The notes under the pieces are model-generated. The model saw only the letters and a program-made list of their open reading frames with translations. It did no database searches and had not been told where the DNA came from. Shown in pieces: positions 10,488 to 43,604 of a stretch of 64,000 nt of DNA (position 1 is the stretch's first letter; each line of letters starts with the position of its first letter). The DNA comes from a virus, in the IMG/VR virus record IMGVR_UViG_3300043446_005562, positions 62,001 through 126,000 of that record, one strand, 5' to 3'. The translations under genes were made by a program, and so were the position numbers.

Positions 10488-12815
10488 CTATACGAGGCCT
10501 AACACAGTCTTTAATTTATTGATGACTTCGGTTGCCTCAATTGATTTAGAACACTCAAACATTCGGTCTGTGCCCTTGTGTATGGGACACCAATTCCAAT
10601 CGCCTGGATCGAGTCGATGCGTGTTGAAACAGCCCGAGCACTTGTTGGAAGGTGCGCATATTCGGTGAGTGTTATGAAGAGTCTCAGTGTAGTCAAATGA
10701 AAAACCTGAAATTAGAATCAATGGAGTAGTCGTTGCCCAGGCAAGCCAGCTTAAACCGCTGCCTATTCCAACAAAGGCTTGCGACTCTTCCAATTCCCGA
10801 ATCACGGTTGAGAGCGGACCTGACTCAAGTTTTCTAATACCGGTTGGATGAGAATTGCCCATGAACCCGTCCTCCTCTCGAGAGAGTAATACCACTTCAT
10901 AGCCTCGCTCATTACACCAATCAACAACCTCTTGCCAGCCGGTTGGATTATTCCAATACTTTGCTTGGCAGGTGCCGTGAATTCCAATTGCGATTTTCTT
11001 CTTCTTTTCAACCTTTGGAATCTGAATGAGCGGTCTGGTCTCTTGATAGGCTAACCCTAAAATATCAAATGCGCATTTTTGCATAGGCTGGTCCTTGACC
11101 TCCCTGACATTTCGGGCCAGGTCAATTTCGTTCTGGTCATTGTAGTACCAGCCGATGTTGTACATCGCAACAATATTGTCCACCACCTCGCCCGGATTTA
11201 CAAATTCAATTTCCGGATACTGGTCCTTGAACATGTAATTCATGTGCGTTGAACAGACCACCTGGCAACCGTGCTTCTTTCTAAACTCTTCAACCGCTGG
11301 AAACCAGGCTAGGCTGTCTCCAAGCGAGCTTGAATCTAATGAAATGTAGACCCTGCGATCTTTGAGCACAATCGGCTCGTTAACAATCATTCTGCCGCTC
11401 TTGACGTCCGTGACTTGCACTCGCCAGTCGGTGTAAAACTTGCGGCTTGCCTTGACCCACATGTTTCTTTTGATTGTATCGCGATGAATGGTCCTACCTG
11501 AGGTTTGATCTATGAATTCAACTAGGTATTCGTCCTGAGGTCCCCCGGTTATCTCTACGTGAGGCCCGCCAACGAAATGATAGTTAATAACGAATTCTGC
11601 TTCGCGACTCTTGTTCACCTCTCTGATGTGATCTGACCGTTTAGCAATATGATTAGCGGCAAGCTCAGCAACCCTGTCCCAATTAAAATCCGAATGGATT
11701 TGAGCAGATTCCCTAACCGCCTTTTTTCGATATTCGGCTGAATTTTGATACACGTCCAGCATGACCCGGCCCAGGTCCTCAAAATCGGGCTCATAATAAT
11801 TGCCGCTTGCCCCATTGAAATGATTGTAGTCCGCGTCCCTTGCTGGTACCTGACCCAGTATTTTAACTGGATGACCCTTACCCTCAGCAAATTCAAGCTG
11901 ACCTGAGCAGTTTGAGTAGATTGCTGGCACTCCGCATGCCATTGCCTCGATTAGAGGTAGATTCCAACCCTCAGAGCGGGCACACGATAAAAAGGCACCA
12001 CATGATTTTAAAAGGTTAACATACTCTTTTCTGTCTGGAAAATGAATCACCTTGATACGGTCATCGTTGAGTCCAAAATGGGCTAGCCGTTTTTCGGTTG
12101 TCTCAAGGCCATCGCCTGAAAATGGATTATCGATTGAGACAATGAGGTCGACAGGCTCTTCTTTTTTGAATGTTTTTAAAAAGGTCTCAACAATCTCTTT
12201 GGTTGATTTTCGGTAATCCCAACGGCCGGCTAAAAAGAATTTAAAACGACCGTCCTGGGTCAATTCGTGTTTGGCTCCCGGGTCCGGATAGAACACTTGA
12301 GTGTCCACCCCCTCCGGAATAACAAAGATTTTTTCGGCTGGATAGCCTTGCGCAATGGTACAGTCGCGTTGCCATTTTGAAGGCACCCACATTTCATCAA
12401 ACTCCAGCAGTCGCTTAAAGAAATTTTCAGGCTGTTGAGTGGTCTCCCAAACGTTATAGGCTATTCGATAGTTCTGGTAATCGTGATAGAAGTAATGATG
12501 ATCGGTTTCATTTAGCACCAGGTCAATCTCGGCCTCACCCGGATTGGGCCAGGCCTCGTACATTTTAAACTCCATTAATCTCTGGTCCGGCGTCCACAGG
12601 GATTGCTCATGCAGCAAGGTCTTCATCCGGTCCGTTAGATAGGGTTCCTGATTGTGGGGCTCTTCTGACATGCCCTGCCAGGTTTTACCCACCGTAAAAT
12701 TTCTGATCTCAAGAGGCACTCTTTCGGAGAGCTTTGTAAAAAAGGATTGTGCGTGATTGTTGTAACCGGTCGAGCCTATGAATGAGGTATGAACCTTGAT
12801 TTTTGGAAGAGTCAC
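10488..12815 (-). CDS. Fused glycosyltransferase: GT4 domain + TibC/BAHT-type O-heptosyltransferase
   Basis: A 775-residue two-enzyme protein. Residues 1 to about 395 form a GT-B fold, family GT4-like: IPEGVDTQVFYP, the nucleotide-site region FFLAGRWDYRKS, and the E-x7-E type motif SEGWNLPLIEAMACGVPAI (about 281-299). Residues about 405-775 match the bacterial autotransporter heptosyltransferase family (TibC/AAH): an N-terminal beta region, SLDSSSLGDSLAWFPAVEEF, and a four-cysteine end CSGCF...WCPIH...FECSKSI, which in TibC binds iron. TibC-type enzymes put heptose on Ser of repetitive surface proteins. The GT4 half could extend the sugar. The start is GTG. It is last in the fibre operon, after an 80-base gap. 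The donor sugar cannot be read from sequence. Confidence 0.88.
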   Translation of the reverse strand: MTLPKIKVHTSFIGSTGYNNHAQSFFTKLSERVPLEIRNFTVGKTWQGMSEEPHNQEPYLTDRMKTLLHEQSLWTPDQRLMEFKMYEAWPNPGEAEIDLVLNETDHHYFYHDYQNYRIAYNVWETTQQPENFFKRLLEFDEMWVPSKWQRDCTIAQGYPAEKIFVIPEGVDTQVFYPDPGAKHELTQDGRFKFFLAGRWDYRKSTKEIVETFLKTFKKEEPVDLIVSIDNPFSGDGLETTEKRLAHFGLNDDRIKVIHFPDRKEYVNLLKSCGAFLSCARSEGWNLPLIEAMACGVPAIYSNCSGQLEFAEGKGHPVKILGQVPARDADYNHFNGASGNYYEPDFEDLGRVMLDVYQNSAEYRKKAVRESAQIHSDFNWDRVAELAANHIAKRSDHIREVNKSREAEFVINYHFVGGPHVEITGGPQDEYLVEFIDQTSGRTIHRDTIKRNMWVKASRKFYTDWRVQVTDVKSGRMIVNEPIVLKDRRVYISLDSSSLGDSLAWFPAVEEFRKKHGCQVVCSTHMNYMFKDQYPEIEFVNPGEVVDNIVAMYNIGWYYNDQNEIDLARNVREVKDQPMQKCAFDILGLAYQETRPLIQIPKVEKKKKIAIGIHGTCQAKYWNNPTGWQEVVDWCNERGYEVVLLSREEDGFMGNSHPTGIRKLESGPLSTVIRELEESQAFVGIGSGLSWLAWATTTPLILISGFSFDYTETLHNTHRICAPSNKCSGCFNTHRLDPGDWNWCPIHKGTDRMFECSKSIEATEVINKLKTVLGLV

Positions 12816-12895: not shown

Positions 12896-13657
12896 TTAAG
12901 TACTGATTATGAAGGCTGGGCATCTATAAAAATCAACACCGGCTTGGCCCTCCCAGACGTTATTTGGAGAGTTCTTTGCTGCATCAAGAAACTGGGCCTG
13001 ATGAGCTAATGATTCACCGGTATGATGATCGAGTATGTCTAAATTAACGTTGTAACCGTTGTTAAGATCCTGATTTACAATGGACCAGTAATATCTGACT
13101 CCGCCGTTTGCTCCACTGGTCGATTGGCTTGTACCATTACCACCGGCTGCAATATTGCCGTAAAAATCTACTCCGCCACCGGCTGGCCACATTTGAGATG
13201 GTGGCGGCGCAAACGTTATGCCAGGGATTTGAAAAATCCACTCACTCCAAAGACGTATGTTAACATCAATATTGGTGTTTGGATCATTGGTTACAACTTC
13301 AAGGCGCCCTCGATTGTCAAAGGGCCAGTGATCATATCCTTTAAAATCTCCCCATCGTATTTTGCCATTGCTCCACGCATAATTATAGATATTTTCGCCA
13401 GATGTGCTATTGCGATTAATATAATAAGAAGTTCCTGAATATGTTCCAGCCGTAATGTAGCCGTTCATTGAGCTATGGGGAGCAGGATTCGAAGAATCTA
13501 GATCAAATTGTGCAATATCGCCTGCCGCAAGACTGGCTGTTCCGTTTTGAGTGAATGCTCTGATCAAACTATTGGTCGAGGTTGTGCCGACTGATGTGCC
13601 GTTCCATCCAACTCTCACGCTGGAGCCGCTCTGCATTACGTATGGACTTGTTGCCAT
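12896..13657 (-). CDS. Virion/fibre-associated protein, unknown
   Basis: A 253-residue protein rich in Gly, Ser, Asn, Thr and aromatic residues, with no membrane segment. Stretches such as INRNSTSGENIYNYAWSNG and FPPP-like APPPSQMWPAGGGVDF look like extracellular beta-sandwich or receptor-binding domains. Its ATG overlaps the stop of the 2810-residue fibre by one base, so it is made together with it. It could be a distal tip, a lectin-like receptor-binding protein or a fibre chaperone. I recognise no family. Confidence 0.5.
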   Translation of the reverse strand: MATSPYVMQSGSSVRVGWNGTSVGTTSTNSLIRAFTQNGTASLAAGDIAQFDLDSSNPAPHSSMNGYITAGTYSGTSYYINRNSTSGENIYNYAWSNGKIRWGDFKGYDHWPFDNRGRLEVVTNDPNTNIDVNIRLWSEWIFQIPGITFAPPPSQMWPAGGGVDFYGNIAAGGNGTSQSTSGANGGVRYYWSIVNQDLNNGYNVNLDILDHHTGESLAHQAQFLDAAKNSPNNVWEGQAGVDFYRCPAFIIST

Positions 13658-16600
13658 TAACTTAGTTTATTTTTTAAGTCCTCAATCTGGGCCTGCTGTT
13701 CCTTGATTGCCTCAATCAGGACCGAAACCAGATTTGCATAGGAAACTGCTTTGGTACCGTCCGGATTGGTGAAGACCACCTGCGGGAATGCCGCTTCCAT
13801 CTCCTGCGCAATGACTCCAGCGTAAACTCTAGTCTGGTCTTCTTGATCGTTACGTGTGAAGGTTACACCGCGCATTGCCTTTACCTTAGCCAGGGCGTCT
13901 GTGATGGTTTCAACATTATCCTTAACCGATCGATCTGAAAAGGCTATAATATTACCGGCTGCATAGATATCTCCAGTACCACCGCCGACCGTACCAACTT
14001 CAAGCGTATAACCTGGAGTTGCACCAGCATTCACGCTTAATCTCGCATTGGTTTGATCCCAATAGAGTTGATTCGTATCATCAACTGCTGCACCCGTTGC
14101 TGGGTAATAAGCAACATAGCCTGCATTACCGGAGTTTACCGTACCCGAACCTCCACCGCCGGAAATCGTAACGTCCGCCTGGCTACCCGAAGCGGCAACG
14201 GTTGCGCCCGACACAAAGTTAATAGAGGTAGCGCTTGAAACAATGGTGGTTCCAGCTTGTTTAACCGAGACAGCTGATGCGGTTCCAGAAGTTCCGCTTG
14301 AGCCAGAAGTTCCTGAAGAACCCGCTGCTCCTGTTGCGCCGCTTGTTCCTGATGATCCAGAAGTTCCTGACGAACCTGCGGGACCAGTCGCTCCAGTAGC
14401 ACCGCTTGTTCCTGAAGAACCTGAAGTTCCTGAAGAACCTGAAGTTCCTGACGAACCTGCTGCACCGGTTGCTCCGCTTGTACCTGAAGAACCTGAAGTT
14501 CCTGAAGAACCAGCTGCACCGGTTGCTCCGCTTGTGCCAGAAGAACCTGAAGTTCCGTCTTTTCCATTAAATACCCATGATACTGTGTAGTAAGAGGTTG
14601 TGTTCACTATACCAGTTCCAGCGAGTAGGGTATTTAATTGTATGTCGTAGTATGTTGTCTGATTTGTGAAAGTTCCAACTTTCCATGCTCCAATTGCTGC
14701 GTTGTTGCCAACCTCTGTTATTTGAAGATAAGAGACATTTCCTGCTGCGAGCATTGTGCCCAATGTATTAAACCAAGTTGCGTATGCTGTGCCAAATGTG
14801 TCCTGTCTTGAAATACTTAATTTAGTAGCTGTCCCAAGGTTAGTTGTGTCTAATTTGAATTGACCGAGACCTGGTGAAGAATATGCAAGCGCACTATTAT
14901 CAAACCTCCATCGACCTGAGTTTGAACCGTCATTACCTGCTGCTCCAGCCGCTCCGGTTGCTCCGCTTGTTCCACTAGAACCTGAAGTTCCCGAAGAGCC
15001 TGAAGTTCCAGAAGAACCTGCTGCTCCAGTAGCACCGCTTGTTCCGCTACTTCCACTTGTTCCAGAAGAACCGGCTGCACCGGTTGCTCCACTTGTGCCA
15101 GAAGAACCCGAAGTTCCACTAGAGCCTGATGATCCGGAAGTTCCTGAAGAACCTGCCGCACCGGTTGCTCCGCTTGTTCCTGAAGAACCGGACGTACCTG
15201 ACGAACCAGCAGGACCTGTTGCTCCGGTTGCTCCACTTGTACCAGAAGAACCAGATGTTCCGCTTGATCCAGAAGAACCAGAAGTTCCGCTAGAGCCTGA
15301 TGATCCAGAAGTTCCTGAAGAACCTGCTGCACCAGTTGCGCCGCTTGTTCCAGAACTGCCTGATGTGCCAGAAGATCCTGAACTACCTGATGTGCCTGAG
15401 CTTCCAGAAGAACCTGATGTTCCACTACTTCCACTTGTTCCAGATGAACCTGCAGGACCAGTCGCTCCAGTAGCACCACTAGTTCCTGAAGAACCTGAGC
15501 TACCTGACGTACCTGAACTACCGGACGTTCCCGAAGAACCGGCTGCTCCAGTCGCTCCACTCGTACCTGAAGAACCCGAAGTTCCTGAGCTACCGGCAGC
15601 ACCAGTTGCTCCGCTAGTTCCTGATGAACCAGATGTTCCGCTTGAACCAGACGAGCCGCTAGTTCCCGATGAACCTGAAGAGCCTGATGTTCCACTAGAG
15701 CCTGATGTACCGCTTGCTCCACTTATACCGCTAGTTCCGCTTGAACCGGATGAACCGCTTGTTCCTGAAGAACCGGCAGCACCCGTTGCTCCACTCGTAC
15801 CTGAAGAACCTGAAGTTCCTGAGCTGCCGCTTGAACCTGAAGTTCCCGAAGAACCTGAACTGCCGCTTGTTCCGCTAGAACCGCTAGTTCCCGAAGAACC
15901 TGCTGCACCAGTTGCACCGCTTGTTCCAGAAGAACCAGATGTTCCCGAAGAACCCGCTGCTCCGGTTGCTCCACTAGTTCCTGATGAACCGCTAGTTCCT
16001 GAAGATCCTGAAGAGCCGCTAGTTCCTGATGAACCGCTTGAGCCAGATGTTCCCGAGCTTCCGCTAGTTCCTGAAGAACCTGAGGAACCGCTAGTTCCGC
16101 TTGAACCTGAAGTTCCAGATGAGCCAGATGTTCCTGAGCTACCGCTTGTTCCACTTGAACCACTTGTTCCTGAAGAACCGGCTGTACCGTTTTTACCATT
16201 AAACCACCAGCTAATTACATGTTCATTACCGTTAGTTAAAGTTCCAGTGCCGGCATTCAAGTTTAAATCAACTTGTACAACGTTTCCAACTGGAGAACCA
16301 ACTGCTGTGATTGCATAAACTCCTCCAATTCCAGTAGTTAATTCAAAAATTTCTAAGTATGCTTGATTACCTGCAGTTACTTGAGTTTGAATAGCCGACC
16401 ACCATTGAGTTGAATTGAATGAACTTGGTCTGTATGCCGTTATATTTACATAAAATTTGTTAATTAAACCGACGTTCGTTGTAGCAGTTACACCCGCATA
16501 ATAGTTAATGTTTGTAGAACCTGGTGTAGTTGAAGCGCTTGAATTGAATATCCATGAAACGCCGTTTCCTATTGAACTTGCACCCGAAGTACCTGAGCTG

Positions 16601-19600
16601 CCGCTTGTTCCACTAGAACCTGAAGTACCTGAGCTACCTGAAGATCCGGATGTTCCAGATGATCCCGATGTACCTGATGAACCTGACGATCCACTTGTAC
16701 CGCTGCTTCCACTTGAACCTGATGTTCCACTTGAACCTGAACTGCCTGAAGTACCCGATGAACCGCTAGTACCGCTAGAACCGGAAGTTCCAGATGAACC
16801 TGAAGAACCTGATGTACCGCTTGATCCAGACGAGCCAGATGTTCCTGACGAACCGCTAGTACCAGAGGAACCTGAAGAACCACTAGTTCCGGATGAACCG
16901 CTTGAACCGCTTGTTCCAGACGAGCCAGAACTTCCTGAAGTACCACTTGAACCCGAGCTTCCAGATGTACCAGAAGAGCCAGATGTTCCAGAGCTACCTG
17001 AAGTTCCGCTAGATCCAGATGAACCTGAAGTACCTGAAGAACCTGAGCTACCAGAAGTTCCACTTGATCCTGATGTACCAGAAGAACCTGATGTTCCTGA
17101 GCTTCCACTAGTTCCTGATGAACCTGAAGAGCCAGATGTTCCCGAAGAACCACTACTACCACTTGTTCCACTTGAACCCGATGTTCCGCTACTACCCGAT
17201 GAGCCGCTAGTTCCTGAAGAACCGCTGCTTCCTGATGTCCCACTTGAACCACTTGTTCCAGAAGAACCCGAAGATCCTGATGTGCCAGATGAGCCTGAAG
17301 AACCTGAAGTTCCTGAGCTTCCGCTTGTTCCTGAGCTACCCGAACTACCAGAAGTTCCACTTGAACCTGAAGTACCTGAAGATCCAGAAGTTCCAGAAGA
17401 ACCGCTTGAGCCTGATGTTCCTGAGCTACCAGATGTTCCCGAAGAACCAGAAGTACCTGAAGATCCAGAAGTACCTGAGCTGCCTGAAGAACCTGAAGTT
17501 CCAGATGAACCGGACGAACCAGAGGTTCCAGAGCTTCCTGAAGTTCCTGAACTACCTGATGTTCCAGAGCTACCGGATGTACCGGAAGAGCCTGAGCTTC
17601 CGCTTGTTCCGCTTGAACCTGAACTTCCGCTAGTTCCGGATGAACCGCTTGAGCCTGAAGTACCACTACTACCTGATGAACCTGAAGAACCACTTGTTCC
17701 GCTTGAACCTGAAGAACCGCTAGTACCTGAACTTCCCGAAGTACCTGATGAGCCAGACGTTCCTGAAGAACCTGAAGAACCAGAAGTTCCGCTTGAGCCT
17801 GAGCTTCCTGATGTACCGCTACTTCCACTTGTACCACTTGAGCCAGAAGTTCCTGACGAACCGCTTGAACCAGAGGTACCGCTACTACCTGATGAACCTG
17901 ACGTTCCTGAAGAACCAGAAGAACCCGATGTTCCTGAGCTACCGCTTGTACCACTTGAACCTGATGTTCCACTGCTGCCTGATGAACCGCTAGTACCAGA
18001 AGAACCTGAAGTACCAGAAGATCCACTTGAACCAGAGGTACCAGAACTTCCTGAAGAGCCGGATGTTCCAGAGCTTCCGCTTGTACCAGATGAACCTGAA
18101 CTTCCAGAGGTTCCAGATGAACCACTAGAACCTGAAGTTCCAGAGCTTCCTGATGTACCCGATGAGCCTGAGGTTCCAGCGCTTCCGCTAGTACCAGATG
18201 AACCGCTTGATCCGGACGTACCATTTACTCCAGAAAGACCAGATGTTCCACTTGAGCCTGATGTACCTGAACTTCCTGAAGAGCCAGATGTTCCAGAGCT
18301 TCCGCTTGTACCTGAACTTCCAGATGTTCCAGATGAACCGCTTGAGCCCGAAGTCCCTGAGCTACCAGATGTTCCGCTTGAGCCTGACGAGCCGGATGTT
18401 CCGGAAGAACCTGAGCTGCCAGACGTGCCTGAAGATCCAGAAGTACCTGAGCTTCCACTTGTTCCGGATGAACCTGAAGAGCCGCTTGTTCCGGATGAAC
18501 CTGAACTACCGCTTGTTCCACTTGAACCGCTTGAACCTGATGTTCCTGAAGAACCTGAGGTGCCAGAACTTCCTGAAGTACCAGAAGAACCTGAACTACC
18601 GCTTGTTCCACTAGAACCGCTTGAACCTGATGTTCCTGAAGAACCGCTCGTTCCTGAAGAACCAGAAGAACCTGATGTTCCTGAAGAACCTGATGTACCA
18701 GATGACCCTGATGTTCCACTTGAGCCTGATGAGCCACTTGTTCCTGAACTACCCGAACTTCCACTTGTACCTGAAGAACCACTAGTTCCTGATGAACCTG
18801 AACTTCCAGATGTTCCTGACGAACCAGAAGAACCTGATGTTCCGGAACTACCACTAGTTCCTGATGAACCACTAGTTCCAGAAGAACCCGAAGATCCGCT
18901 TGTTCCGGATGAACCGCTTGAGCCGCTAGTTCCAGAGCTACCTGATGTTCCAGATGAACCTGACGTACCTGAACTACCACTAGTTCCAGAAGAACCGCTT
19001 GAACCTGATGTTCCTGAAGAACCTGAACTACCTGAAGTTCCTGAAGAACCGCTAGTTCCTGATGAACCTGAAGAGCCAGATGTTCCTGAGCTACCACTTG
19101 TTCCACTTGAACCAGATGTACCTGAACTACCTGAAGTTCCTGAAGAACCGCTGCTTCCCGATGTCCCACTTGAACCACTTGTTCCAGAAGAACCCGAGGA
19201 TCCTGATGTGCCAGATGAGCCTGAAGAACCTGAAGTTCCTGAGCTTCCACTAGTTCCGCTTGAACCTGATGTACCACTAGAGCCTGAACTGCCTGAAGTA
19301 CCTGAACTACCACTTGAGCCAGAAGTTCCTGACGAACCGCTTGAGCCTGAAGTACCACTACTACCTGATGAACCGCTAGTACCAGAGGAACCTGACGTTC
19401 CTGAAGAACCGCTTGTTCCTGATGAACCGGATGAGCCAGAAGTTCCACTTGAACCGGACGAACCAGAGGTTCCAGAGCTTCCTGAAGTTCCGCTTGAGCC
19501 AGAGCTACCGCTTGTTCCTGATGAACCTGAGCTACCGGATGTACCGGAAGAGCCTGAACTTCCGCTTGTTCCTGATGAACCCGACGTTCCTGAAGAACCA

Positions 19601-22089
19601 CTTGTACCGCTAGAACCGGAAGTTCCAGATGAACCTGAAGAACCTGATGTACCGCTTGATCCAGACGAGCCAGATGTTCCTGAGCTTCCACTTGTTCCGG
19701 ATGAACCGCTTGAACCGGATGTTCCAGAAGAACCAGAAGTTCCGCTTGAGCCTGATGTTCCTGAGCTACCCGAAGAACCTGAGGTTCCAGATGAACCGCT
19801 AGATCCAGAAGTGCCACTTGAGCCAGAAGTTCCTGACGAACCAGAAGATCCGCTTGTACCGCTACTACCTGAAGAACCAGATGTACCGCTTGAACCTGAA
19901 GAACCAGATGTACCGCTTGAACCTGAAGTACCAGATGAGCCACTTGAACCTGAAGTACCGGATGAGCCAGAAGTACCGCTACTTCCGCTAGAACCAGATG
20001 TTCCACTTGAACCTGAAGTACCTGAACTTCCAGAAGAACCGCTTGTTCCCGATGAGCCTGAAGAACCGCTTGAACCAGAAGTTCCAGACGAACCTGAAGT
20101 ACCAGATGATCCGCTTGAACCAGAAGTACCTGAAGAACCGGATGAACCTGAAGAACCGGAAGTTCCACTTGAACCAGATGAGCCGCTAGTGCCACTTGAG
20201 CCTGAAGAACCTGATGTTCCTGAAGATCCGGAAGTTCCGCTTGAACCTGATGTTCCTGAGCTTCCAGATGTACCGCTACTTCCAGAAGAACCGCTTGTTC
20301 CAGAGCTTCCTGACGTTCCAGAAGATCCTGAGCTACCGCTTGTTCCAGAAGAACCACTTGAACCTGATGTACCGGATGTTCCACTTGCTCCACTTGCTCC
20401 ACTTGTTCCAGACGAGCCTGACGTTCCTGAAGAACCAGAAGAACCAGATGTTCCAGAGCTACCAGAAGAGCCAGAGGTTCCCGAAGAACCTGATGTACCG
20501 CTACTTCCAGAAGAACCGCTAGTTCCTGAACTTCCACTTGTTCCTGACGAACCAGAAGAGCCAGATGTTCCTGAGCTACCTGAAGTTCCGCTAGAGCCTG
20601 ATGATCCAGAAGTACCAGATGAACCGCTTGTTCCACTAGAACCCGAAGAACCTGATGTTCCAGACGATCCTGATGAACCTGAAGTTCCGCTACTACCACT
20701 TGTTCCAGATGAACCAGAGCTTCCCGATGTTCCGGAGCTGCCGCTTGTACCAGATGAACCTGAGGAACCTGATGTTCCGCTACTACCACTAGTGCCAGAT
20801 GAACCAGATGTTCCAGAAGAACCACTTGATCCGCTTGTACCGCTTGAGCCAGACGTACCTGAGCTACCACTAGTTCCTGACGAACCTGAAGAGCCGGATG
20901 TTCCCGAAGATCCAGATGAACCGCTTGTTCCACTTGAACCAGCTGTACCTGAACTTCCGCTTGTTCCTGATGAACCTGAAGAACCAGAAGTTCCCGAAGA
21001 ACCACTAGTGCCAGAAGAACCTGAACTGCCGCTTGTACCAGATGAACCTGATGTTCCAGAGCTGCCAGATGTACCTGACGAACCACTAGTTCCTGAAGAG
21101 CCTGAACTTCCAGATGTTCCAGAAGATCCTGATGAGCCGCTAGTTCCCGAAGAACCAGATGTTCCAGAAGAACCGCTTGTTCCAGACGAACCACTTGAGC
21201 CAGACGTACCTGAGCTACCTGATGTACCACTTGAACCTGATGTGCCCGATGAACCTGAACTTCCACTTGTTCCTGACGAACCAGAAGAACCCGATGTTCC
21301 TGAGCTACCACTTGAACCGCTAGTTCCACTAGAACCTGATGTACCAGACGAGCCGCTAGAACCCGAAGTTCCTGATGAGCCGCTTGAACCGGACGTTCCA
21401 CTAGAACCGGCTGTTCCAGATGAACCGCTAGTTCCGCTTGAACCAGAAGAACCAGATGTTCCCGAGCTACCCGAAGTTCCAGAAGATCCAGAGCTACCCG
21501 AGGTTCCGCTACTTCCGGAAGAGCCGGATGTACCCGAGCTGCCAGAAGTACCTGAACTTCCTGATGTTCCGCTTGAACCGCTTGAACCTGAAGTTCCAGA
21601 AGAACCGCTTGTACCACTACTTCCGGAAGAACCTGAAGTACCACTTGAGCCGGATGTTCCGGATGAACCAGATGAACCGGATGTGCCCGAAGAACCGCTA
21701 GTTCCTGACGAACCAGCTGCGCCTGAACCGCCCTGTATCATGGTGAACATATTGTCACCTTCATATATTATAAGATATTTAGCATGAGCTACGGTAAATG
21801 GTTTATAGGTAGTTGTTCCAATGTTTACTCCATTTACGTACACCGTTAACGCACTATCACTTGAACTTTTTTGAAGTTGAGGTCCAGTTGAGGTAATGTT
21901 ACCGCTCGGGTCAGTTATCTCAAAGGTCTCGCCTTCGTAAATTGTTCCAGTTGAAATACTTGGCAATTGAATAACCGAGGATGATCCGCCAGCACCAGAT
22001 CCACCAATTTTGAATTCAAAATATAATTGAGTATTCAGTGAATGTGGGCCGGTTCCCGTTAACGTTTGTGTGCTCTTAAAAACTGCCAT
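13657..22089 (-). CDS. Giant collagen-like Ser/Thr fibre protein with S74 chaperone domain
   Basis: A 2810-residue protein. Residues 1 to about 120 form a beta-rich head. About 120-1836 is one Gly-X-Y tract built almost only from GSS and GTS triplets. Domain A spans about 1840-1967; mixed repeats with GATGAA triplets run to about 2382. Domain B, alike to A (both end SW.FNGK.G), spans about 2382-2510; a further short repeat runs to about 2600. The C-terminus has beta segments and an intramolecular chaperone (peptidase S74) from about residue 2714: FSDRSVKDNVETI, then YAGVIAQEMEAAFPQVV and a terminal coiled coil. S74 domains trimerise fibres and often cleave themselves off. The likely product is a trimeric long tail or surface fibre. 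Ser/Thr at nearly every X and Y position makes it a candidate O-glycosylation substrate. Confidence 0.88.
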   Translation of the reverse strand: MAVFKSTQTLTGTGPHSLNTQLYFEFKIGGSGAGGSSSVIQLPSISTGTIYEGETFEITDPSGNITSTGPQLQKSSSDSALTVYVNGVNIGTTTYKPFTVAHAKYLIIYEGDNMFTMIQGGSGAAGSSGTSGSSGTSGSSGSSGTSGSSGTSGSSGSSGTSGSSGTSGSSGSSGTSGSSGTSGSSGTSGSSGSSGTSGSSGSSGTSGSSGTSGSSGSSGTSGSSGTAGSSGTSGSSGSSGTSGSSGSSGTSGSSGTSGSSGSSGTSGSSGSSGTSGSSGSSGTSGSSGTSGSSGTSGSSGSSGTSGSSGTSGSSGTSGSSGSSGTSGSSGSSGTSGSSGTSGSSGTSGSSGTSGSSGSSGTSGSSGTSGSSGSSGTSGSSGTAGSSGTSGSSGSSGTSGSSGSSGTSGSSGTSGSSGTSGSSGSSGTSGSSGTSGSSGTSGSSGSSGTSGSSGTSGSSGSSGTSGSSGTSGSSGSSGTSGSSGSSGTSGSSGTSGSSGSSGTSGSSGTSGSSGSSGTSGSSGTSGSSGSSGTSGSSGTSGSSGSSGTSGSSGSSGTSGSSGTSGASGASGTSGTSGSSGSSGTSGSSGSSGTSGSSGTSGSSGSSGTSGSSGTSGSSGTSGSSGTSGSSGSSGTSGSSGSSGTSGSSGSSGSSGTSGSSGSSGTSGSSGTSGSSGSSGSSGTSGSSGSSGTSGSSGTSGSSGSSGTSGSSGTSGSSGSSGTSGSSGTSGSSGSSGTSGSSGSSGTSGSSGSSGTSGSSGTSGSSGSSGTSGSSGSSGTSGSSGTSGSSGTSGSSGSSGTSGSSGTSGSSGSSGTSGSSGSSGTSGSSGTSGSSGTSGSSGTSGSSGSSGTSGSSGSSGTSGSSGSSGTSGSSGTSGSSGSSGTSGSSGSSGTSGSSGTSGSSGTSGSSGSSGTSGSSGSSGTSGSSGSSGTSGSSGSSGTSGSSGTSGSSGTSGSSGSSGTSGSSGSSGTSGSSGTSGSSGSSGTSGSSGTSGSSGTSGSSGTSGSSGSSGTSGSSGTSGSSGSSGTSGSSGSSGTSGSSGTSGSSGTSGSSGTSGSSGSSGTSGSSGSSGTSGSSGTSGSSGTSGSSGSSGTSGSSGSSGTSGSSGTSGSSGSSGTSGSSGSSGTSGSSGTSGSSGTSGSSGSSGTSGSSGTSGSSGSSGTSGSSGSSGTSGSSGTSGSSGTSGSSGSSGTSGSSGSSGTSGSSGSSGTSGSSGTSGSSGTSGSSGSSGTSGSSGSSGTSGSSGTSGSSGSSGTSGSSGTSGSSGTSGSSGSSGTSGSSGTSGLSGVNGTSGSSGSSGTSGSAGTSGSSGTSGSSGTSGSSGSSGTSGSSGSSGTSGSSGTSGSSGSSGTSGSSGSSGTSGSSGTSGSSGSSGTSGSSGTSGSSGTSGSSGSSGTSGSSGSSGTSGSSGSSGTSGSSGTSGSSGTSGSSGSSGTSGSSGSSGTSGSSGTSGSSGTSGSSGSSGTSGSSGSSGSSGTSGSSGSSGTSGSSGSSGTSGSSGSSGTSGSSGTSGSSGTSGSSGTSGSSGSSGTSGSSGSSGTSGSSGTSGSSGTSGSSGTSGSSGSSGTSGSSGTSGSSGTSGSSGSSGTSGSSGTSGSSGSSGTSGSSGSSGTSGSSGTSGSSGSSGTSGSSGSSGTSGSSGTSGSSGSSGTSGSSGSSGTSGSSGTSGSSGTSGSSGTSGSSGSSGTSGSSGSSGTSGSSGTSGSSGTSGSSGSSGTSGSSGSSGTSGSSGSSGTSGSSGSSGTSGSSGTSGSSGSSGTSGSSGSSGTSGSSGTSGSSGTSGSSGSSGTSGSSGSSGTSGSSGSSGTSGSSGTSGSSGSSGTSGSSGTSGSSGTSGASSIGNGVSWIFNSSASTTPGSTNINYYAGVTATTNVGLINKFYVNITAYRPSSFNSTQWWSAIQTQVTAGNQAYLEIFELTTGIGGVYAITAVGSPVGNVVQVDLNLNAGTGTLTNGNEHVISWWFNGKNGTAGSSGTSGSSGTSGSSGTSGSSGTSGSSGTSGSSGSSGTSGSSGTSGSSGSSGTSGSSGSSGTSGSSGTSGATGAAGSSGTSGSSGTSGATGAAGSSGTSGSSGTSGSSGSSGTSGSSGSSGTSGSSGTSGATGAAGSSGTSGSSGSSGTSGISGASGTSGSSGTSGSSGSSGTSGSSGSSGTSGSSGTSGATGAAGSSGTSGSSGTSGATGAAGSSGTSGSSGTSGSSGSSGTSGATGATGPAGSSGTSGSSGTSGSSGSSGTSGSSGSSGTSGSSGTSGATGAAGSSGTSGSSGSSGTSGSSGSSGTSGSSGTSGATGATGPAGSSGTSGSSGTSGATGAAGSSGTSGSSGSSGTSGSSGTSGATGAAGSSGTSGSSGTSGATGAAGSSGTSGSSGTSGSSGTSGATGAAGAAGNDGSNSGRWRFDNSALAYSSPGLGQFKLDTTNLGTATKLSISRQDTFGTAYATWFNTLGTMLAAGNVSYLQITEVGNNAAIGAWKVGTFTNQTTYYDIQLNTLLAGTGIVNTTSYYTVSWVFNGKDGTSGSSGTSGATGAAGSSGTSGSSGTSGATGAAGSSGTSGSSGTSGSSGTSGATGATGPAGSSGTSGSSGTSGATGAAGSSGTSGSSGTSGTASAVSVKQAGTTIVSSATSINFVSGATVAASGSQADVTISGGGGSGTVNSGNAGYVAYYPATGAAVDDTNQLYWDQTNARLSVNAGATPGYTLEVGTVGGGTGDIYAAGNIIAFSDRSVKDNVETITDALAKVKAMRGVTFTRNDQEDQTRVYAGVIAQEMEAAFPQVVFTNPDGTKAVSYANLVSVLIEAIKEQQAQIEDLKNKLS
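14290..14555 (-). repeat. Short Gly-X-Y tract with GATGAA/GATGPA units
   Basis: About 88 residues of collagen-like triplets near the fibre C-terminus. GSS and GTS are mixed with GAT, GAA and GPA, giving a more ordinary collagen-like composition than the main tract. It joins domain B to the pre-S74 region. Confidence 0.75.
14945..16190 (-). repeat. Mixed Gly-X-Y tract between domains A and B
   Basis: About 415 residues of triplets. GSS/GTS runs are interrupted at intervals by GATGAAGSS or GATGATGPAG blocks, plus single GIS and GAS triplets. The insertion of Ala/Pro triplets is absent from the long tract upstream, so this segment has a separate history. Confidence 0.8.
16580..21730 (-). repeat. 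5.1-kb tract coding about 570 consecutive GSS/GTS triplets
   Basis: The translated unit is a strict Gly-X-Y triplet, written with two letters: GTS, followed by one or two (rarely three) GSS. Exceptions are a few GTA, GSA, GAS, GLS and GVN triplets. DNA copies are diverged by synonymous codons rather than identical. The antisense strand is open for most of the tract as a by-product of composition. Confidence 0.9.
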
Positions 22090-22121: not shown

Positions 22122-25100
22122 TTATCGTGGTCGATTAGTTCCGACCAAGAAATTTGCCCAACCGCTCAATGATGGAGGTAGGGCATTCCAGCTACCTGCT
22201 GGAAAAGGAGTTTGTCCACTAGATACAACGGTTCCACCAATCCAATAGTCATCGGTATGTGTCACATTATCGTTGAATAAAGTGTATGAAGAGACTTCTT
22301 CTGTGTGGAAATAAACGTCATCCAACAGAATACCTTTACTTGTACCTTGAGGATCTGTGTATATGAAATTTGGAGAACCTCCAGTTAGTCCAAGCGAAGC
22401 AAATGTCGTTTGGTGAATACTTAATCTGGATTCAACAGTATATGAAGAATTTAGATCTAAAAGCATCCAACTTTCGCTAGAAGCAGTTGCTGTTCCTGGG
22501 GTAAGTACGCTGTTTGGACGGCGGTTATACATTTCAAAATGGCAACCTCTAATGTATGCAGTAGACTGATCTAGCGATACAAGATAGCAGTACACATTAT
22601 TGTTTGCGCCAGTATCAACAATCTCACAATTTTCCAAATACAGAGATGAATATCTTGCTAAAATTGCATAGGCCCCGTTTGATGAATGGTCTACCTGTAT
22701 TTTGATATTATTCATCTTTAGTGAGCCGTTTGCTACAAATATAGCGTTCATAGTCGGCACTGATATTACGCTGTTATAACGACCCGATCCAGTTATTGTC
22801 AACTCAGCAGCAGTCAACCAAGTATTACCAGCAGAGCCTGATACAGCTAATGTTACGCCTGGCTCAAAGTAGAGAGATACATTGTATGAACTCGATACAG
22901 TTACCGTAGTCGATTCAGTATAGGCTCCTCTAAATACATGAATTGTATAGCTACCTGCTCCAAGAGCAGAAAGGCCATTTAAAGCGCCGTTGATTGTTTG
23001 CCAAGGTAAATCTAATCTACCTAATTGTGCAGTAGTATTATTTCCATTCGGATCAACAAATAAAGTTTGAGCATATCCTATTGCTTGGAAAGAGGTTCCA
23101 CTTGTTCCGCTTGATCCTGAAGTTCCACTTGAGCCAGAAGAACCCGATGTGCCTGACGAACCAGAAGTTCCAGAAGATCCGCTTGAACCTGACGTTCCAG
23201 AGCTTCCACTGGTTCCTGACGAACCACTAGTTCCGCTTGAGCCACTAGAACCAGATGTTCCTGAAGATCCTGAAGTACCTGACGAACCAGACGAGCCAGA
23301 TGTTCCGGCTGAACCTGACGTACCAGATGAACCTGAACTACCTGATGTTCCGGAAGAGCCTGAGCTTCCACTAGTTCCACTAGAACCAGATGTACCACTT
23401 GAACCTGATGAACCTGAAGTTCCTGAGCTACCTGATGTTCCAGATGAGCCACTGGAACCGCTTGTGCCCGAAGAACCTGAAGTTCCACTAGATCCCGAAG
23501 ATCCAGATGTTCCCGAAGAACCACTTGATCCAGATGTTCCGGACGATCCACTAGTTCCTGATGAACCTGAACTACCTGATGTTCCCGAAGAACCGCTAGA
23601 GCCTGACGTACCTGAGCTTCCACTAGTTCCTGATGAACCTGAAGTTCCTGAGCTACCTGATGTTCCAGATGAGCCACTTGAACCTGAAGTGCCACTAGAT
23701 CCTGAAGATCCTGAAGTTCCGCTTGAGCCACTAGTTCCACTAGAACCAGATGTTCCTGAAGAACCGCTAGATCCTGACGTACCGGAGCTTCCACTAGTAC
23801 CTGAAGAACCGCTACTACCGGATGTTCCCGAAGAGCCCGAAGTTCCGCTACTTCCTGAAGATCCTGAGGTACCAGACGATCCTGAACTACCTGATGTTCC
23901 GCTTGAACCGCTTGTTCCTGAAGAACCTGAACTACCTGATGTTCCCGAAGAACCTGAAGTACCACTTGACCCTGATGTACCTGATGAACCTGAGCTTCCG
24001 CTAGTACCAGATGAACCACTTGAGCCTGAAGTTCCTGAGCTTCCGCTAGTTCCTGATGAACCTGATGTACCGCTTGAGCCAGATGTACCGCTTGAACCTG
24101 AAGAACCACTTGTTCCGCTTGAACCTGAAGAACCACTTGTTCCGCTTGAACCTGAAGAACCTGATGTACCTGATGAACCTGAGCTTCCTGAAGTTCCGCT
24201 TGAACCGCTTGTTCCTGAAGAACCCGAGCTTCCACTAGTTCCGGATGATCCACTTGAACCCGACGTTCCCGACGAACCGCTTGTTCCACTTGAACCAGAA
24301 CTTCCGCTTGTTCCAGAAGAGCCTGAGCTTCCTGAAGTACCACTTGAGCCAGATGTTCCACTAGAACCACTACTACCTGAAGTACCAGATGATCCCGATG
24401 TACCGGAAGATCCACTTGTTCCACTAGATCCACTTGAGCCTGATGTACCAGATGATCCTGAAGTACCAGATGAACCGCTTGTTCCGGATGAACCTGAGCT
24501 TCCTGAAGTACCGCTTGAACCTGATGTTCCTGAGCTTCCGCTAGTACCTGATGAACCTGACGAACCGCTTGTTCCGCTTGAACCGCTTGAACCTGATGTC
24601 CCAGAAGATCCACTAGTTCCTGACGAACCCGATGTACCTGAACTTCCTGATGAACCTGATGTACCAGAGCTGCCTGATGTTCCAGATGATCCCGAAGATC
24701 CTGAAGTACCAGATGAACCGCTGCTTCCTGATGTGCCCGAAGAACCAGAGGTTCCACTTGAACCTGATGTACCTGAGCTACCACTAGAACCGCTAGTACC
24801 GGATGAGCCGCTAGAACCCGAAGTTCCTGATGAACCTGAACTTCCACTAGTTCCGCTAGATCCACTTGAGCCGGAAGTTCCTGATGAACCTGACGTACCC
24901 GATGATCCGGAAGTTCCACTTGAACCGCTGCTACCTGATGAACCTGATGTTCCGCTAGAACCTGATGTTCCTGATGAACCTGAACTGCCGCTTGTTCCTG
25001 AAGAACCGCTTGAACCTGAGGTTCCTGAAGAGCCTGAACTTCCAGAAGTACCGGATGAACCGGCTGTTCCGCTAGATCCTGATGTTCCAGATGAACCACT

Positions 25101-28100
25101 CGTACCCGAAGAGCCTGAGCTACCGGATGTACCAGATGAACCGCTTGATCCAGATGTTCCGGAAGATCCACTAGTTCCTGAAGAACCACTTGAACCTGAA
25201 GTTCCGCTACTTCCTGATGAACCTGCTGTACCAGAGCTGCCAGATGTTCCAGAAGATCCTGAGCTTCCGGAAGTGCCAGAGGATCCACTAGAACCTGAGG
25301 TTCCTGAGCTTCCGCTAGTTCCTGAAGAACCCGAAGTTCCGCTAGAACCGGAACTACCTGCTGTACCGGAACTTCCACTAGTTCCTGACGTACCTGAGCT
25401 ACCAGATGTACCGGCTGATCCACTTGTTCCAGAAGAACCGCTTGAGCCCGAAGTTCCGCTAGATCCACTTAAACCTGATGTTCCAGAGCTTCCACTAGTT
25501 CCTGACGAACCACTTGAGCCCGATGTTCCTGACGAACCGCTTGTTCCGGAGCTACCTGAAGTCCCGGCGCTACCGCTGGTCCCTGATGAGCCTGAGCTTC
25601 CACTAGTTCCACTTGAGCCGGATGAGCCAGAGCTTCCCGATGTTCCAGAAGAACCACTAGAACCAGAAGTTCCTGACGAACCGCTAGTTCCTGAAGTACC
25701 ACCACCTACTATGAGATGTGCATGAAAGAACGTTTGAGAGCGTTGATTACTTCCGAAAATAGTGATATTGCTTGAATTTCCACTGTATACTGTGAAATCT
25801 ACATAATCGGTTGTACCGTTCATGTAAATTATTTTATCGTTACCCTGTGTTAAACCAACTGTTGTTGTTATTTGATTTTGCCAAATCGCCTCTTGGCTAT
25901 TTCCATTCTTACGAATTTGCGAATTGTATTGATTTGTGGTTATAGCGCCAGGATCAAATAAAACTTGTAGAGTTATTTGATAATACCCTGAAATGGTCGG
26001 TTTAAATTGATAGGTTGACTGATTCCACCAGTTATTTGGATCAAAATCATCAATGAATTGGATTACAGTATCGCTATTAGGTGTTACTGTTTGGTTAGCA
26101 GCTAGGTAACCCTGAACAACATAATTAGAGGCAACTAAACCAGTTGGAGAAGTTCCACTAGTTCCAGAAGAACCGGAAGATCCGGATGTTCCGCTTGAAC
26201 CTGATGAGCCAGACGTTCCAGAGCTTCCCGATGTACCAGAGCTTCCGCTAGTTCCAGATGAACCTGAACTACCGCTGGTACCGCTTGAACCAGAACTACC
26301 TGACGTACCCGAACTACCCGAAGAGCCAGATGTTCCACTTGAACCTGAAGTTCCGGCGCTACCGCTTGTTCCAGAAGAACCGCTAGTTCCGGAGCTACCG
26401 CTAGAACCTGAAGTTCCAGAAGAACCCGCTGTTCCAGAAGATCCACTGCTACCTGAAGTTCCTGAAGAACCGCTTGACCCTGATGTTCCAGAGCTTCCAC
26501 TTGTTCCACTACTTCCTGATGAGCCAGATGTTCCTGAAGAACCACTACTTCCACTTGTTCCTGAACTACCTGATGTACCACTACTTCCTGATGTTCCAGA
26601 GCTTCCGCTTGTTCCACTTGAACCTGAAGAGCCTGAAGTTCCGCTTGAGCCAGATGTTCCTGACGAACCGCTTGAGCCCGAAGTTCCAGACGAGCCAGAT
26701 GTTCCTGACGAACCGCTAGTTCCTGAGCTTCCTGATGTTCCTGAAGAACCTGAGCTTCCAGAAGTTCCTGATGAACCACTTGTTCCTGATGAACCGCTTG
26801 TTCCTGAAGAGCCCGATGTTCCGGAAGATCCACTTGAACCTGAGGTTCCAGATGTTCCGCTTGCGCCGCTTGCGCCGCTAGTACCAGAAGTCCCGGATGA
26901 CCCTGAGCTTCCAGAAGTTCCTGAACTGCCTGAAGAACCTGATGAACCTGAGCTTCCTGAAGTACCACTTGAGCCAGACGTTCCCGAAGAGCCCGATGTT
27001 CCAGAAGATCCTGAACTTCCGCTAGTTCCTGAAGAGCCTGAACTACCGCTGGTACCGCTTGAACCAGAACTACCTGACGTACCTGAGCTTCCGGAAGTTC
27101 CAGAAGAGCCTGAGGTACCACTACTACCACTCGAACCTGAGGTACCAGATGAACCCGAAGTTCCTGACGAACCGCTTGAGCCTGACGTACCACTACTACC
27201 GGATGAACCTGAAGTACCTGAACTACCACTAGTTCCTGAAGAACCGGCTGTTCCAGATGAACCAGAGCTTCCGCTAGTTCCCGAAGAACCTGAGCTGCCT
27301 GAAGTACCAGAAGAACCGGATGATCCACTTGAACCAGATGTTCCCGAAGAACCCGAGCTTCCACTGGTTCCTGAACTACCAGAGGTTCCTGAACTGCCTG
27401 AAGAACCTGACGTACCTGAACTACCAGAGGTTCCACTAGAACCTGAAGTTCCTGAGCTGCCGCTTGAACCTGAAGTTCCCGAAGAACCTGAGCTTCCAGA
27501 AGTTCCTGAGCTGCCTGATGTTCCCGACGATCCTGAACTACCAGAGGTTCCACTTGAACCTGAAGTACCTGAGCTGCCTGATGTTCCGGATGAACCTGAG
27601 CTTCCACTAGTTCCACTAGAACCTGAAGTTCCCGAAGAACCTGAGCTTCCAGAAGTTCCTGAGCTGCCTGATGTTCCCGACGTACCCGAAGAACCTGAAG
27701 TTCCGCTAGAACCTGATGTACCTGAGCTGCCTGATGTTCCAGATGAACCTGAGCTTCCACTAGTTCCACTAGAACCTGATGTACCAGAGCTGCCGCTTGT
27801 TCCCGAAGAGCCTGACGTACCCGAAGAACCTGAAGTTCCGCTAGAACCTGATGTACCTGAACTGCCTGATGTTCCAGAGCTTCCAGATGTACCAGATGAA
27901 CCTGAAGTTCCGGCAACTTGGCCTACTGAAGTCAATACAAATGAATAATATGAATTGCCTTCCGTGTAAAAATCGATTGAGTGAGCATTGTTATCTAAAT
28001 TATTAAGATAGATTCTGACTCTCATTCGGTCAGTTGGATTAATAGTGGTTGTCGGTAAAGTTATGTCTAGCGTATTTTCAGCTGGCACAACGGCTGACAC

Positions 28101-41231: not shown

Positions 41232-43604
41232 TTAGCCGGCTGGATCCTGTTGCGCGCCGCCGCCTGCATCTATTTGTTCAGCAATACTGCCTGAATAAAC
41301 GCTATTTGTAACTTGGTGATTGGTTAGATAGGTGCCGTTTATGACAACCCATGTTTTATTGGCCGCTGTGCTGCCTTGATCGTATTTCACAAAATCGTAA
41401 ATACTTACATAGCATGGAATTGATGAATTTATGCCGGTTGAGTCTTGACGAAAACCTCTTAGTATTAATTGTGGATAATTTACCTGATTTACGCCATAAT
41501 AGCTAAATTGCGCAAAGACTGAGCCTGGATCAATAGCCCGTGCCGTGAATTGTGAGCTCGTCCCGGCTCCAGTTCCGCCGAATTTGTAAGTCATTGGAAA
41601 TGATCTCATGCCAGGTCTCCAAGTTTGGCCATAAATATTTACGTTGAATTTGACATTATCAATGCTCCAAGGCCAATGATTTGGAATACCTCTAACGTTT
41701 ATGCCATAGGACTCATAACCATATCGGAACGGGTCCGTAGCAATATTACCAATGTTTTTAAGATCACCAGTTGTTAAATCGACTGCTGCATGACTTGCTG
41801 TTCCAAGTGTACCTAAATCATTTAATACCCAATCTGTGATTGAGAATATTAATTGAAAGGTCACAACCTTTCCGACTTTTGTGTAATAACCGGCCTCATC
41901 GCCAATTGTAGGCTGTGCATTCTTAAGACCAGTATTTGAGGTTGATGCTGGTGCAGGCAGTGTTGAATTTCCAGCAAACCGTATGACCGGGGTAAAGGTT
42001 CCTTCTTGATACTCGTCTAACACATTTGCGTCCGTGCTATTGGCAGTTGGTACGGTACTGGTTGAAACTGGGAATGGTACTGCGCTATTTAGTCTATTTG
42101 CTTTAATACGTAGCGCATAATCGCTTGTGCTAGACGTACCTGCTCCAAGAAATATCTCCTTTGCGGTATTTGGTGCAAGCAACATCAAGTTACCACCGCT
42201 TGCTCCACCGCTCTTTACGGTCATATCGCCATTTGAGCCAGTTCCAGTAGAGGTGATTATGAATGCTGTGTTTGAGGTAAGATCAGTATCGGTCAAAACT
42301 GCAGTCGATGAATTATTCTTGAGAGTTAGTGAAATTTGATCAAGTACAACATTATCGATTGAATTGCCTGAATCTGATTTAATTAGGATATTATTGGTTG
42401 AGTTTGCAACGTTATTTGGGTCAAAACCAATTCCAAATTTGTAGAGGCTGTCCCAATTAAAATGTAGCCCGTCAACCAACGCGCCAGTTATTTTTGAGTT
42501 AGCGTTTGAGCTGTTTTCAAGTATGCTATTGCTAAAACCAAATTTAAGAATTCTATTATTTGGCGGAGAAGACGTTGTTGCGCCAGCCGCTGTTTTCTTG
42601 TTTATGGTCCACGTGAATCTAGAGTTAAGAGCCGGTGTTGTTGTTGTGTCAGCCGAGTGCAGATTAAAATCCACGCGAATCACAGCTTTTCCTGGAATTG
42701 AAGTGTCAGATATTCTAAATTTGCGGACTCTTAGATTTTGATAGGTTGGGCTTATTACGTAATTTGCGGTACCTGAATTTGTTAAATGACCTTCTGCTAA
42801 ATCGTCAACTGATCCCAATTCAAGTTGATGACGGTGACCGGTTGCGCCGTTTAAATGATCAGCTTCGGTTGCTGCATTCGAGGCTTCATAATAAGAATAC
42901 AACGAGAGCAGTGAAGTGTATGGAAAGGCATCCTCATTTATGTCTAACGAAGGCAATGAGCCTAAACGATTGGTGCTTGGAGTTACAGCGTAACCATTGA
43001 TTGAGCTTGCGCCAGAGACTATATTTTTTGCAGTATTTGGATCAAAATTAAAGAGAACTGTTTGAGAGTTTTGAGCAGTTCCGCCTGAAATTATCCAGTT
43101 GGGTGCATTTGTTGTATAGGCTCCCTGCGTACCGGCTGTTGTAATTCTATCAATTCCTCTAGAATTTTTAATTGGAATTAGAATCTTTGAAATCGCGGAG
43201 GCATTGATACCTAACTGCCAAGTAGAACTGCCAGCTAATGAGATAGAGTTAAAAATATCGTAAAAGTCGGTAATAACATCCCAGCCGCTTGAGCCGCTTG
43301 CAGTTTTCTTGTAAATCTTATCGTCTGTTATAAAATAATCCCCAATCACGGCGCTAGTTACAGCACCGGATGTAATTGTTACGCCTGTCGTTAGGGCAGT
43401 ATCTGAATATATTTGTGGGCCAGCCTCACCCTGAGGTCCGATTGGGCCCTGTGGACCAGCTGCGCCAGTTGAACCGGTTGCACCGGCTGGACCAGGTTCG
43501 CCAAAGCCTAACGCAAGGAGCTGGTTAAAATTAAAATTAAGTTTGCTGGCTAAGTCGGCCGGATTGTCTACCGAGAAGACTTCTTTTAGATTAATGTTTA
43601 TCAT
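41232..43604 (-). CDS. Tail appendage protein with short classical collagen-like segment
   Basis: A 790-residue protein. A helical start (SVDNPADLASKLNFNFNQLL) is followed at about residues 36-65 by Gly-X-Y triplets rich in proline (GEPGPAGATGSTGAAG, GPQGPIGPQGEAGP), as in ordinary phage collagen-like trimerisers. The remaining 720 residues are beta-rich and Ser/Thr/Asn-rich (for example DGLHFNWDSLYKFGIGF) and end in GGGAQQDPAG. It is probably a trimeric fibre or baseplate appendage. The proline-rich collagen here contrasts with the proline-poor repeats in the two giant fibres. It starts one base into the stop of the 2058-residue gene. Confidence 0.65.
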   Translation of the reverse strand: MININLKEVFSVDNPADLASKLNFNFNQLLALGFGEPGPAGATGSTGAAGPQGPIGPQGEAGPQIYSDTALTTGVTITSGAVTSAVIGDYFITDDKIYKKTASGSSGWDVITDFYDIFNSISLAGSSTWQLGINASAISKILIPIKNSRGIDRITTAGTQGAYTTNAPNWIISGGTAQNSQTVLFNFDPNTAKNIVSGASSINGYAVTPSTNRLGSLPSLDINEDAFPYTSLLSLYSYYEASNAATEADHLNGATGHRHQLELGSVDDLAEGHLTNSGTANYVISPTYQNLRVRKFRISDTSIPGKAVIRVDFNLHSADTTTTPALNSRFTWTINKKTAAGATTSSPPNNRILKFGFSNSILENSSNANSKITGALVDGLHFNWDSLYKFGIGFDPNNVANSTNNILIKSDSGNSIDNVVLDQISLTLKNNSSTAVLTDTDLTSNTAFIITSTGTGSNGDMTVKSGGASGGNLMLLAPNTAKEIFLGAGTSSTSDYALRIKANRLNSAVPFPVSTSTVPTANSTDANVLDEYQEGTFTPVIRFAGNSTLPAPASTSNTGLKNAQPTIGDEAGYYTKVGKVVTFQLIFSITDWVLNDLGTLGTASHAAVDLTTGDLKNIGNIATDPFRYGYESYGINVRGIPNHWPWSIDNVKFNVNIYGQTWRPGMRSFPMTYKFGGTGAGTSSQFTARAIDPGSVFAQFSYYGVNQVNYPQLILRGFRQDSTGINSSIPCYVSIYDFVKYDQGSTAANKTWVVINGTYLTNHQVTNSVYSGSIAEQIDAGGGAQQDPAG

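Follow-up and report, generated by a model that had tools for sequence, protein, structure and literature searches.

The fibre locus and its phage

How could a collagen-like rod be built from chains that hold neither proline nor charge? This question is raised by a fibre locus on the minus strand of the window, the whole stretch of 64,000 nucleotides analysed here, which corresponds to bases 62001-126000 of a 252,618-base virus record. Genes for a large terminase, baseplate wedge, tail-sheath stabiliser, head closure, PhoH and GroEL neighbour the locus and point to a jumbo T4-like myophage. The terminase is nearest to those of uncultured 630-640 kb phages, Sphingomonas phage PAU, Prevotella Lak phages and Tenacibaculum phage PTm1. 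The GroEL-like chaperonin gene (62647-63999, plus strand; phrog_5725, E=2.8e-136) is truncated by the window end.

Four minus-strand genes succeed one another at the locus: ORF B, ORF A, an ORF of 253 aa and the gene for a two-domain glycosyltransferase of 775 aa (Table 1). The 253-aa product has no family match and its structure model was unusable (pLDDT 30); it may be a tip or an accessory protein.

Table 1. Features of the fibre locus. Coordinates are those of the window.
Feature	Coordinates	Strand	Description
ORF B	22122..29666	-	2,514-aa second collagen-like fibre protein, upstream of ORF A
ORF A	13657..22089	-	2,810-aa trimeric-type fibre protein
Main Gly-X-Y tract	16576..21732	-	proline-free, aa 120-1838 of ORF A, 573 uninterrupted triplets
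Knob 1	16198..16575	-	aa 1839-1964 of ORF A, globular insert between tracts
Second Gly-X-Y tract	14920..16197	-	142 triplets, mostly GSS/GTS plus GAT/GAA, two GPA
Knob 2	14566..14919	-	aa 2391-2508 of ORF A
Third Gly-X-Y tract	14278..14565	-	32 triplets
C-terminal tail-fibre domain	13657..14277	-	with Peptidase_S74 intramolecular chaperone (PF13884)
253-aa ORF	12896..13657	-	between ORF A and the glycosyltransferase gene
775-aa glycosyltransferase	10488..12815	-	two domains, N-terminal GT4 (PF00534), C-terminal TibC/AAH-type
TibC-type O-heptosyltransferase domain	10488..11606	-	aa 404-775 of the 775-aa enzyme

ORF A carries a proline-free Gly-X-Y shaft

The N-terminal domain of ORF A (aa 1-119) is followed by three Gly-X-Y tracts of 573, 142 and 32 triplets, with a knob after each of the first two and the S74 domain after the third. 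For the longest of these the initial annotation had claimed a collagen tract of about 570 triplets at 16580-21730, with glycine at every third residue. Both claims were borne out: the tract spans 16576-21732, glycine occupies the first position in 573/573 triplets (residues 120-1838), and no frameshift or stop is met across 1,719 codons. Position X holds Ser (341), Thr (225), Ala (4) and one each of Gly, Leu and Val, while position Y holds Ser (568), Ala (4) and Asn (1). The description of X and Y as Ser/Thr only is thus right to about 99%, the remainder being a few Ala, Gly, Leu, Val and Asn. Charged residues are absent, and proline occurs at none of the 1,146 X and Y positions. 'Near proline-free' was therefore correct as to proline poverty, but the qualifier can be dropped, since the tract is entirely without proline. 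For the same reason the tract is called collagen-like here and not a typical collagen. The Pfam Collagen profile (PF01391) matched the whole ORF A protein with E=2.5e-293. At 0.286 nm per residue, the computed triple-helical length comes to ~492 nm for the main tract, in agreement with the earlier estimate near 490 nm, and to ~641 nm for all three tracts together.

At the C-terminus, PF13884 was matched with 48.3 bits (cut-off 22), together with 38 PHROG families, mostly tail fibre. From this S74 module, ORF A is predicted to be a trimer. The two knobs share about 30% identity. A confident AlphaFold2 model was obtained for knob 2 (beta-rich, pLDDT 93.5), and it gave no significant match when compared with the PDB. 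Homologues of knob 2 adjoin Ser/Thr tracts in other phages.

ORF B contains 68, 196 and 290 proline-poor triplets (554 in all), with globular inserts between them. Elsewhere in the window, a 790-aa protein (41232-43604, minus strand) has a short sub-threshold collagen-like stretch at aa 35-62.

Long tracts of this kind were also found in other phages. The closest relative among the sequences compared (G101/G102) is about 77% identical at the nucleotide level across 12.5 kb of flanking genes and carries a C-terminal tip different from that of ORF A; in this relative (G102/L449), which comes from another metagenome, at least 566 triplets occupy the main-tract position before the contig ends. Six further contigs have tracts of about 540-890 triplets, and in other phages overall the range was 542-887. 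The main tract thus belongs to a wider class, and any suggestion that it is unique is not supported. Knobs and tips vary among the relatives, and the kind of shaft is retained. Contigs G109-G112 (about 271 kb), L450 and L451 are similar to one another (270-271 kb) and come from several samples.

The tract is an old, selected protein sequence

A long run of low-complexity codons could be an assembly artefact, or the functionless product of a recent slippage expansion. The number of 573 triplets is a count from assembled sequence and in its exact value provisional, as several related contigs break off within a tract of this kind; these contig ends, like the low complexity of the coding sequence, are what speaks for such an origin. 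Against it, the glycine codons are mixed (GGT 282, GGA 213, GGC 74, GGG 4), the serine codons are drawn from both families (TCN 652, AGY 257), and exact DNA repeats in the tract reach no more than 80 nt. Invariant glycine, well-mixed synonymous sites and repeats of at most 80 nt indicate an old protein sequence under selection and not recent slippage. The reading frame is intact over all 1,719 codons, and the relative from another sample, with its at least 566 triplets at the same position, makes an assembly artefact unlikely. An artefactual or functionless origin is therefore considered extremely improbable.

In the main tract, 98% of the gaps between successive threonines at X are 2 or 3 triplets long (38% when shuffled), with a period of 2.53 triplets. 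The same holds for 96% of gaps in the tract at 23091-25700 on the minus strand (shuffled 38-39%), and in both tracts (16576-21732 and 23091-25700) the spacing has low long-range variance. A structural code was considered for this spacing and rejected, because other phages space threonine differently within the same glycine register. The spacing is attributed to ancestry from a 45-bp unit, to which a weak constraint is perhaps added.

A plus-strand ORF of 1,759 aa (16508-21787) opposite the tract was also rejected as a gene. Its frame stays free of stops when the tract is recoded synonymously (a stop in 0/50 randomisations), and the ORF is thus a by-product of the Gly/Ser/Thr codons. In Ser/Thr-type Gly-X-Y tracts one antisense frame is always open. 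In the genome of Microcystis phage Mel-JY01 (PP395634.1), the annotated minus-strand CDS (739-2298 and 1-651) lie antisense to a plus-strand Ser/Thr tract at 836-2176, so that the fibre gene was probably missed in that annotation.

A TibC-type glycosyltransferase is encoded two genes downstream

The gene for the 775-aa enzyme is located two genes downstream of ORF A. Residues 404-771 matched TIGR04414, the NCBIfam equivalog 'autotransporter strand-loop-strand O-heptosyltransferase', with 260.5 bits (cut-off 200), and comparison with E. coli TibC (PDB 4rap) gave E=7.7e-57. In TibC, Asp110 serves as catalytic base and Thr226, Lys230, Arg286 and Trp305 bind the sugar (PMC4358343). Four of these residues are kept in the window enzyme, where Asp500, Thr615, Lys619 and Trp690 are the equivalents of Asp110, Thr226, Lys230 and Trp305; all four cysteines of the iron finger are likewise present (Cys726, 729, 743 and 755). 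The same pattern was seen in 69 non-redundant phage homologues: Asp110, Lys230 and Trp305 are kept in 69/69, Thr226 in 66/69 and the four cysteines in 62/69. Arg286, the heptose contact, is replaced by Val671 in the window and is Arg in only 7/69 of the phage homologues, and TibC Pro300 corresponds to Gly in the window enzyme. In view of these two replacements, the donor may not be ADP-heptose. From its sequence, the 775-aa protein is a homologue that probably works like TibC, and not a proven heptosyltransferase.

A GmhA or HldE-type gene was looked for in the window's own phage and none was detected. Only a few relatives encode such genes. GmhA carries out the first step towards ADP-heptose, and GmhA-like proteins of TibC-bearing phages were matched with 251.5 bits, over the curated cut-off (W03, LR756504.1 430182-430640), and with 180 bits (G026:C1:64359-64814).

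The partner fused to the TibC domain varies among phages (GT4, FkbM methyltransferase, GT25-like), and such variety would be expected if the domain is a module for building glycans. With the patterns used, no GT4-TibC fusion was confirmed in bacteria among 84,980 species genomes. Contig G109, which has >1,200 Gly-X-Y triplets, encodes separate GT4-FkbM and methyltransferase-TibC proteins.

The enzyme accompanies Ser/Thr-type, not Pro-type, tracts

Two independent searches of IMG/VR were carried out by DNA pattern alone, the first for Ser/Thr-type and the second for Pro-rich Gly-X-Y tracts; the matches listed are samples. TIGR04414 was then sought across the whole contigs of both pattern sets. 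Among the matches listed, a TibC-type enzyme was present in 24/53 Ser/Thr-pattern contigs and in 0/47 Pro-pattern contigs (p=1e-8). The two positives of the second batch, G051 and G052, came from the Ser/Thr-pattern search and were counted in that set. The difference persisted in long contigs among the matches listed, with 16/20 against 0/11 at >=60 kb (p=1.6e-5) and 18/32 against 0/21 at >=40 kb. As a control, GT2 (PF00535) showed no bias in contigs of >=40 kb among the matches listed (11/32 versus 7/21, p=1). These p-values somewhat overstate the evidence, because related jumbo phages are not independent samples. About half of the Ser/Thr-tract contigs among the matches listed lack TibC; many of these are fragments, but G017 (148 kb) and G018 (96 kb) cannot be called short.

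Enzyme and tract are also linked in position. When loci were selected by the enzyme, a Ser/Thr tract lay within 10 kb in 13 of the 18 non-redundant loci with full flanks. Among the matches listed, 16 of the 24 tract-selected contigs with the enzyme have a tract within ~10 kb of it; for the other 8, none was seen in the roughly 10 kb examined. Control loci around PhoH of related phages gave a Ser/Thr tract in 0/28. A detectable homologue of the TibC domain occurs in only 4 of 50,697 deposited phage records. One of the four is the cultured Mel-JY01, in which the homologue is a GT4-TibC protein and a Ser/Thr tract lies about 5 kb from it. Thus, among the matches listed, this enzyme family associates with Ser/Thr-type and not with Pro-type phage collagens.

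A glycosylated triple helix as the preferred reading

We favour, with a probability of roughly 0.62, the reading that the fibre is a trimeric, collagen-like triple-helix shaft whose serines are hyper-O-glycosylated by the GT4-TibC enzyme that the phage itself encodes. ORF A would form a very long trimeric virion fibre of the jumbo myophage, presumably placed on the tail. Three chains would trimerise through the C-terminal S74 module, and the shaft, made up almost wholly of Gly-Thr-Ser and Gly-Ser-Ser triplets, would zip up. Within the infected cell the enzyme would glycosylate serines, mostly those at position Y, either ahead of assembly or in its course. The first sugar, heptose or a related one, could be added by the TibC domain, and the glycan could be extended or supplemented by the GT4 domain. 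The sugars would hydrate and stiffen the rod and perhaps shield it from proteases, and the rod would keep the receptor-binding knobs and tips, which are exchangeable, at a great distance from the baseplate. TibC itself modifies serine and not threonine, and its known substrates are beta-helical autotransporters, not collagens (PMC4358343).

The fold assigned to the shaft depends in part on tracts found elsewhere. Five of them switch between Pro-type and Ser/Thr-type blocks within one unbroken glycine register, and because the register is kept, the easiest reading is that both block types lie in the same triple helix. Together with the S74 trimer module, these hybrid tracts suggest a triple-helical fold for the main tract. 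The shaft might instead be a glycosylated 'bottle-brush' that is not triple-helical, an extended and largely disordered Ser-rich stalk comparable to the streptococcal serine-rich repeat adhesins, with its glycine spacing set by recognition by the glycosyltransferase. The Ser-rich composition, the lack of proline and charge and the linkage of a dedicated glycosyltransferase would fit such a stalk, but glycine is invariant in 573/573 triplets though X and Y tolerate some substitution, and neither the trimer module nor the switching of block types without loss of register is accounted for; we regard it as unlikely. A further candidate is an unmodified bundle of polyproline-II (polyglycine-II) helices, with the glycosyltransferase serving LPS, capsule or other virion proteins. 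In the snow-flea antifreeze protein and in the phage S16 gp38 adhesin, Pro-poor Gly-X-X repeats make up bundles of this kind. They need regular turns, however, whereas 573 triplets are unbroken here, and an unrelated role of the enzyme does not predict that, among the matches listed, TibC occurs only with Ser/Thr tracts (p=1e-8). This arrangement is judged very unlikely.

It could also be that the triple helix is unmodified and owes its stability to extreme length, a cool habitat and capping by S74, the co-occurrence of tract and enzyme being due to the shared ancestry of large phages. Related jumbo phages do have many genes in common, and EPclA, the best-studied phage collagen, needs neither hydroxylation nor glycosylation to be stable (PMC3368898). 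Its authors credit the many prolines at X together with charged residues, and cite glycosylated threonine as a further known means of stabilisation (PMC3368898); bacterial collagens average 19% proline at X (PMC8968730). With no proline and no charge, the main tract lacks both routes proposed for an unmodified phage collagen. Moreover, among the matches listed the association holds across enzymes of varied architecture and across varied gene orders, and GT2 shows none of this bias. An unmodified helix is thus quite unlikely. The initial annotation had held that a Ser/Thr shaft needs either modification or another fold. The first alternative has gained from the TibC-type gene two genes downstream and from the association of the families; the hybrid tracts speak against the second.

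The glycosylated triple helix may extend beyond this phage. In large phages, near-pure Gly-Thr/Ser-Ser rods of hundreds of triplets might be stabilised by TibC-type serine O-glycosylation, with glycan taking the place of proline. This generalisation is tentative, and we put it at somewhat less than an even chance. If true, it would provide a natural route to collagen without proline or hydroxyproline, and would add virus particles to the autotransporter adhesins as targets of TibC-type serine O-glycosylation. A large set of jumbo-phage genes that lack annotation would gain a function, and the repeat and the enzyme would make a compact two-gene system for glycosylated collagen rods in bacteria. 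It would also pose a testable question of collagen physics, namely whether O-glycosylated serine at Y can replace hydroxyproline.

Comparison with known systems

Collagen-like phage fibres, TibC enzymes and glycosylated bacterial collagens are already known separately. In the open-access literature, no report was found of a TibC-type enzyme combined with a proline-free collagen in phages. None of the open-access papers naming both TibC and phage deals with a phage-encoded TibC, the jumbo-phage reviews consulted there do not mention collagen, and no open-access paper on Mel-JY01 was found.

The streptococcal serine-rich repeat glycoproteins resemble the ORF A locus in having a very long Ser-rich repeat stalk and locus-encoded glycosyltransferases that include GT4. 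To our knowledge, they have no Gly-X-Y register and are not trimeric, and they are Gram-positive cell-wall adhesins, unlike ORF A. Bacillus BclA differs from ORF A in its Pro-containing (GPT) repeats and its unrelated glycosylation genes. This exosporium protein is a glycosylated collagen-like filament (PMC8968730), as is proposed for ORF A, the glycosylation of which is predicted.

TibC and AAH (the BAHT family, TIGR04414; PMC4358343) share with the 775-aa enzyme the Asp, Lys and Trp residues, the iron-finger cysteines and the location of the gene near that of a long Ser-rich protein. The 775-aa enzyme is unlike them in being phage-borne and fused to GT4, in adjoining collagen-like fibres instead of autotransporters, and in the replacement of Arg286. 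EPclA and EPclB of E. coli O157:H7 prophages (PMC3368898) have, like ORF A, a Gly-X-Y shaft, globular ends, a C-terminal trimerisation module and a fibre role. EPclA, however, has proline at X and charged residues, and its recombinant form is unglycosylated, whereas the main tract of ORF A has neither kind of residue, is far longer and is linked to a glycosyltransferase gene.
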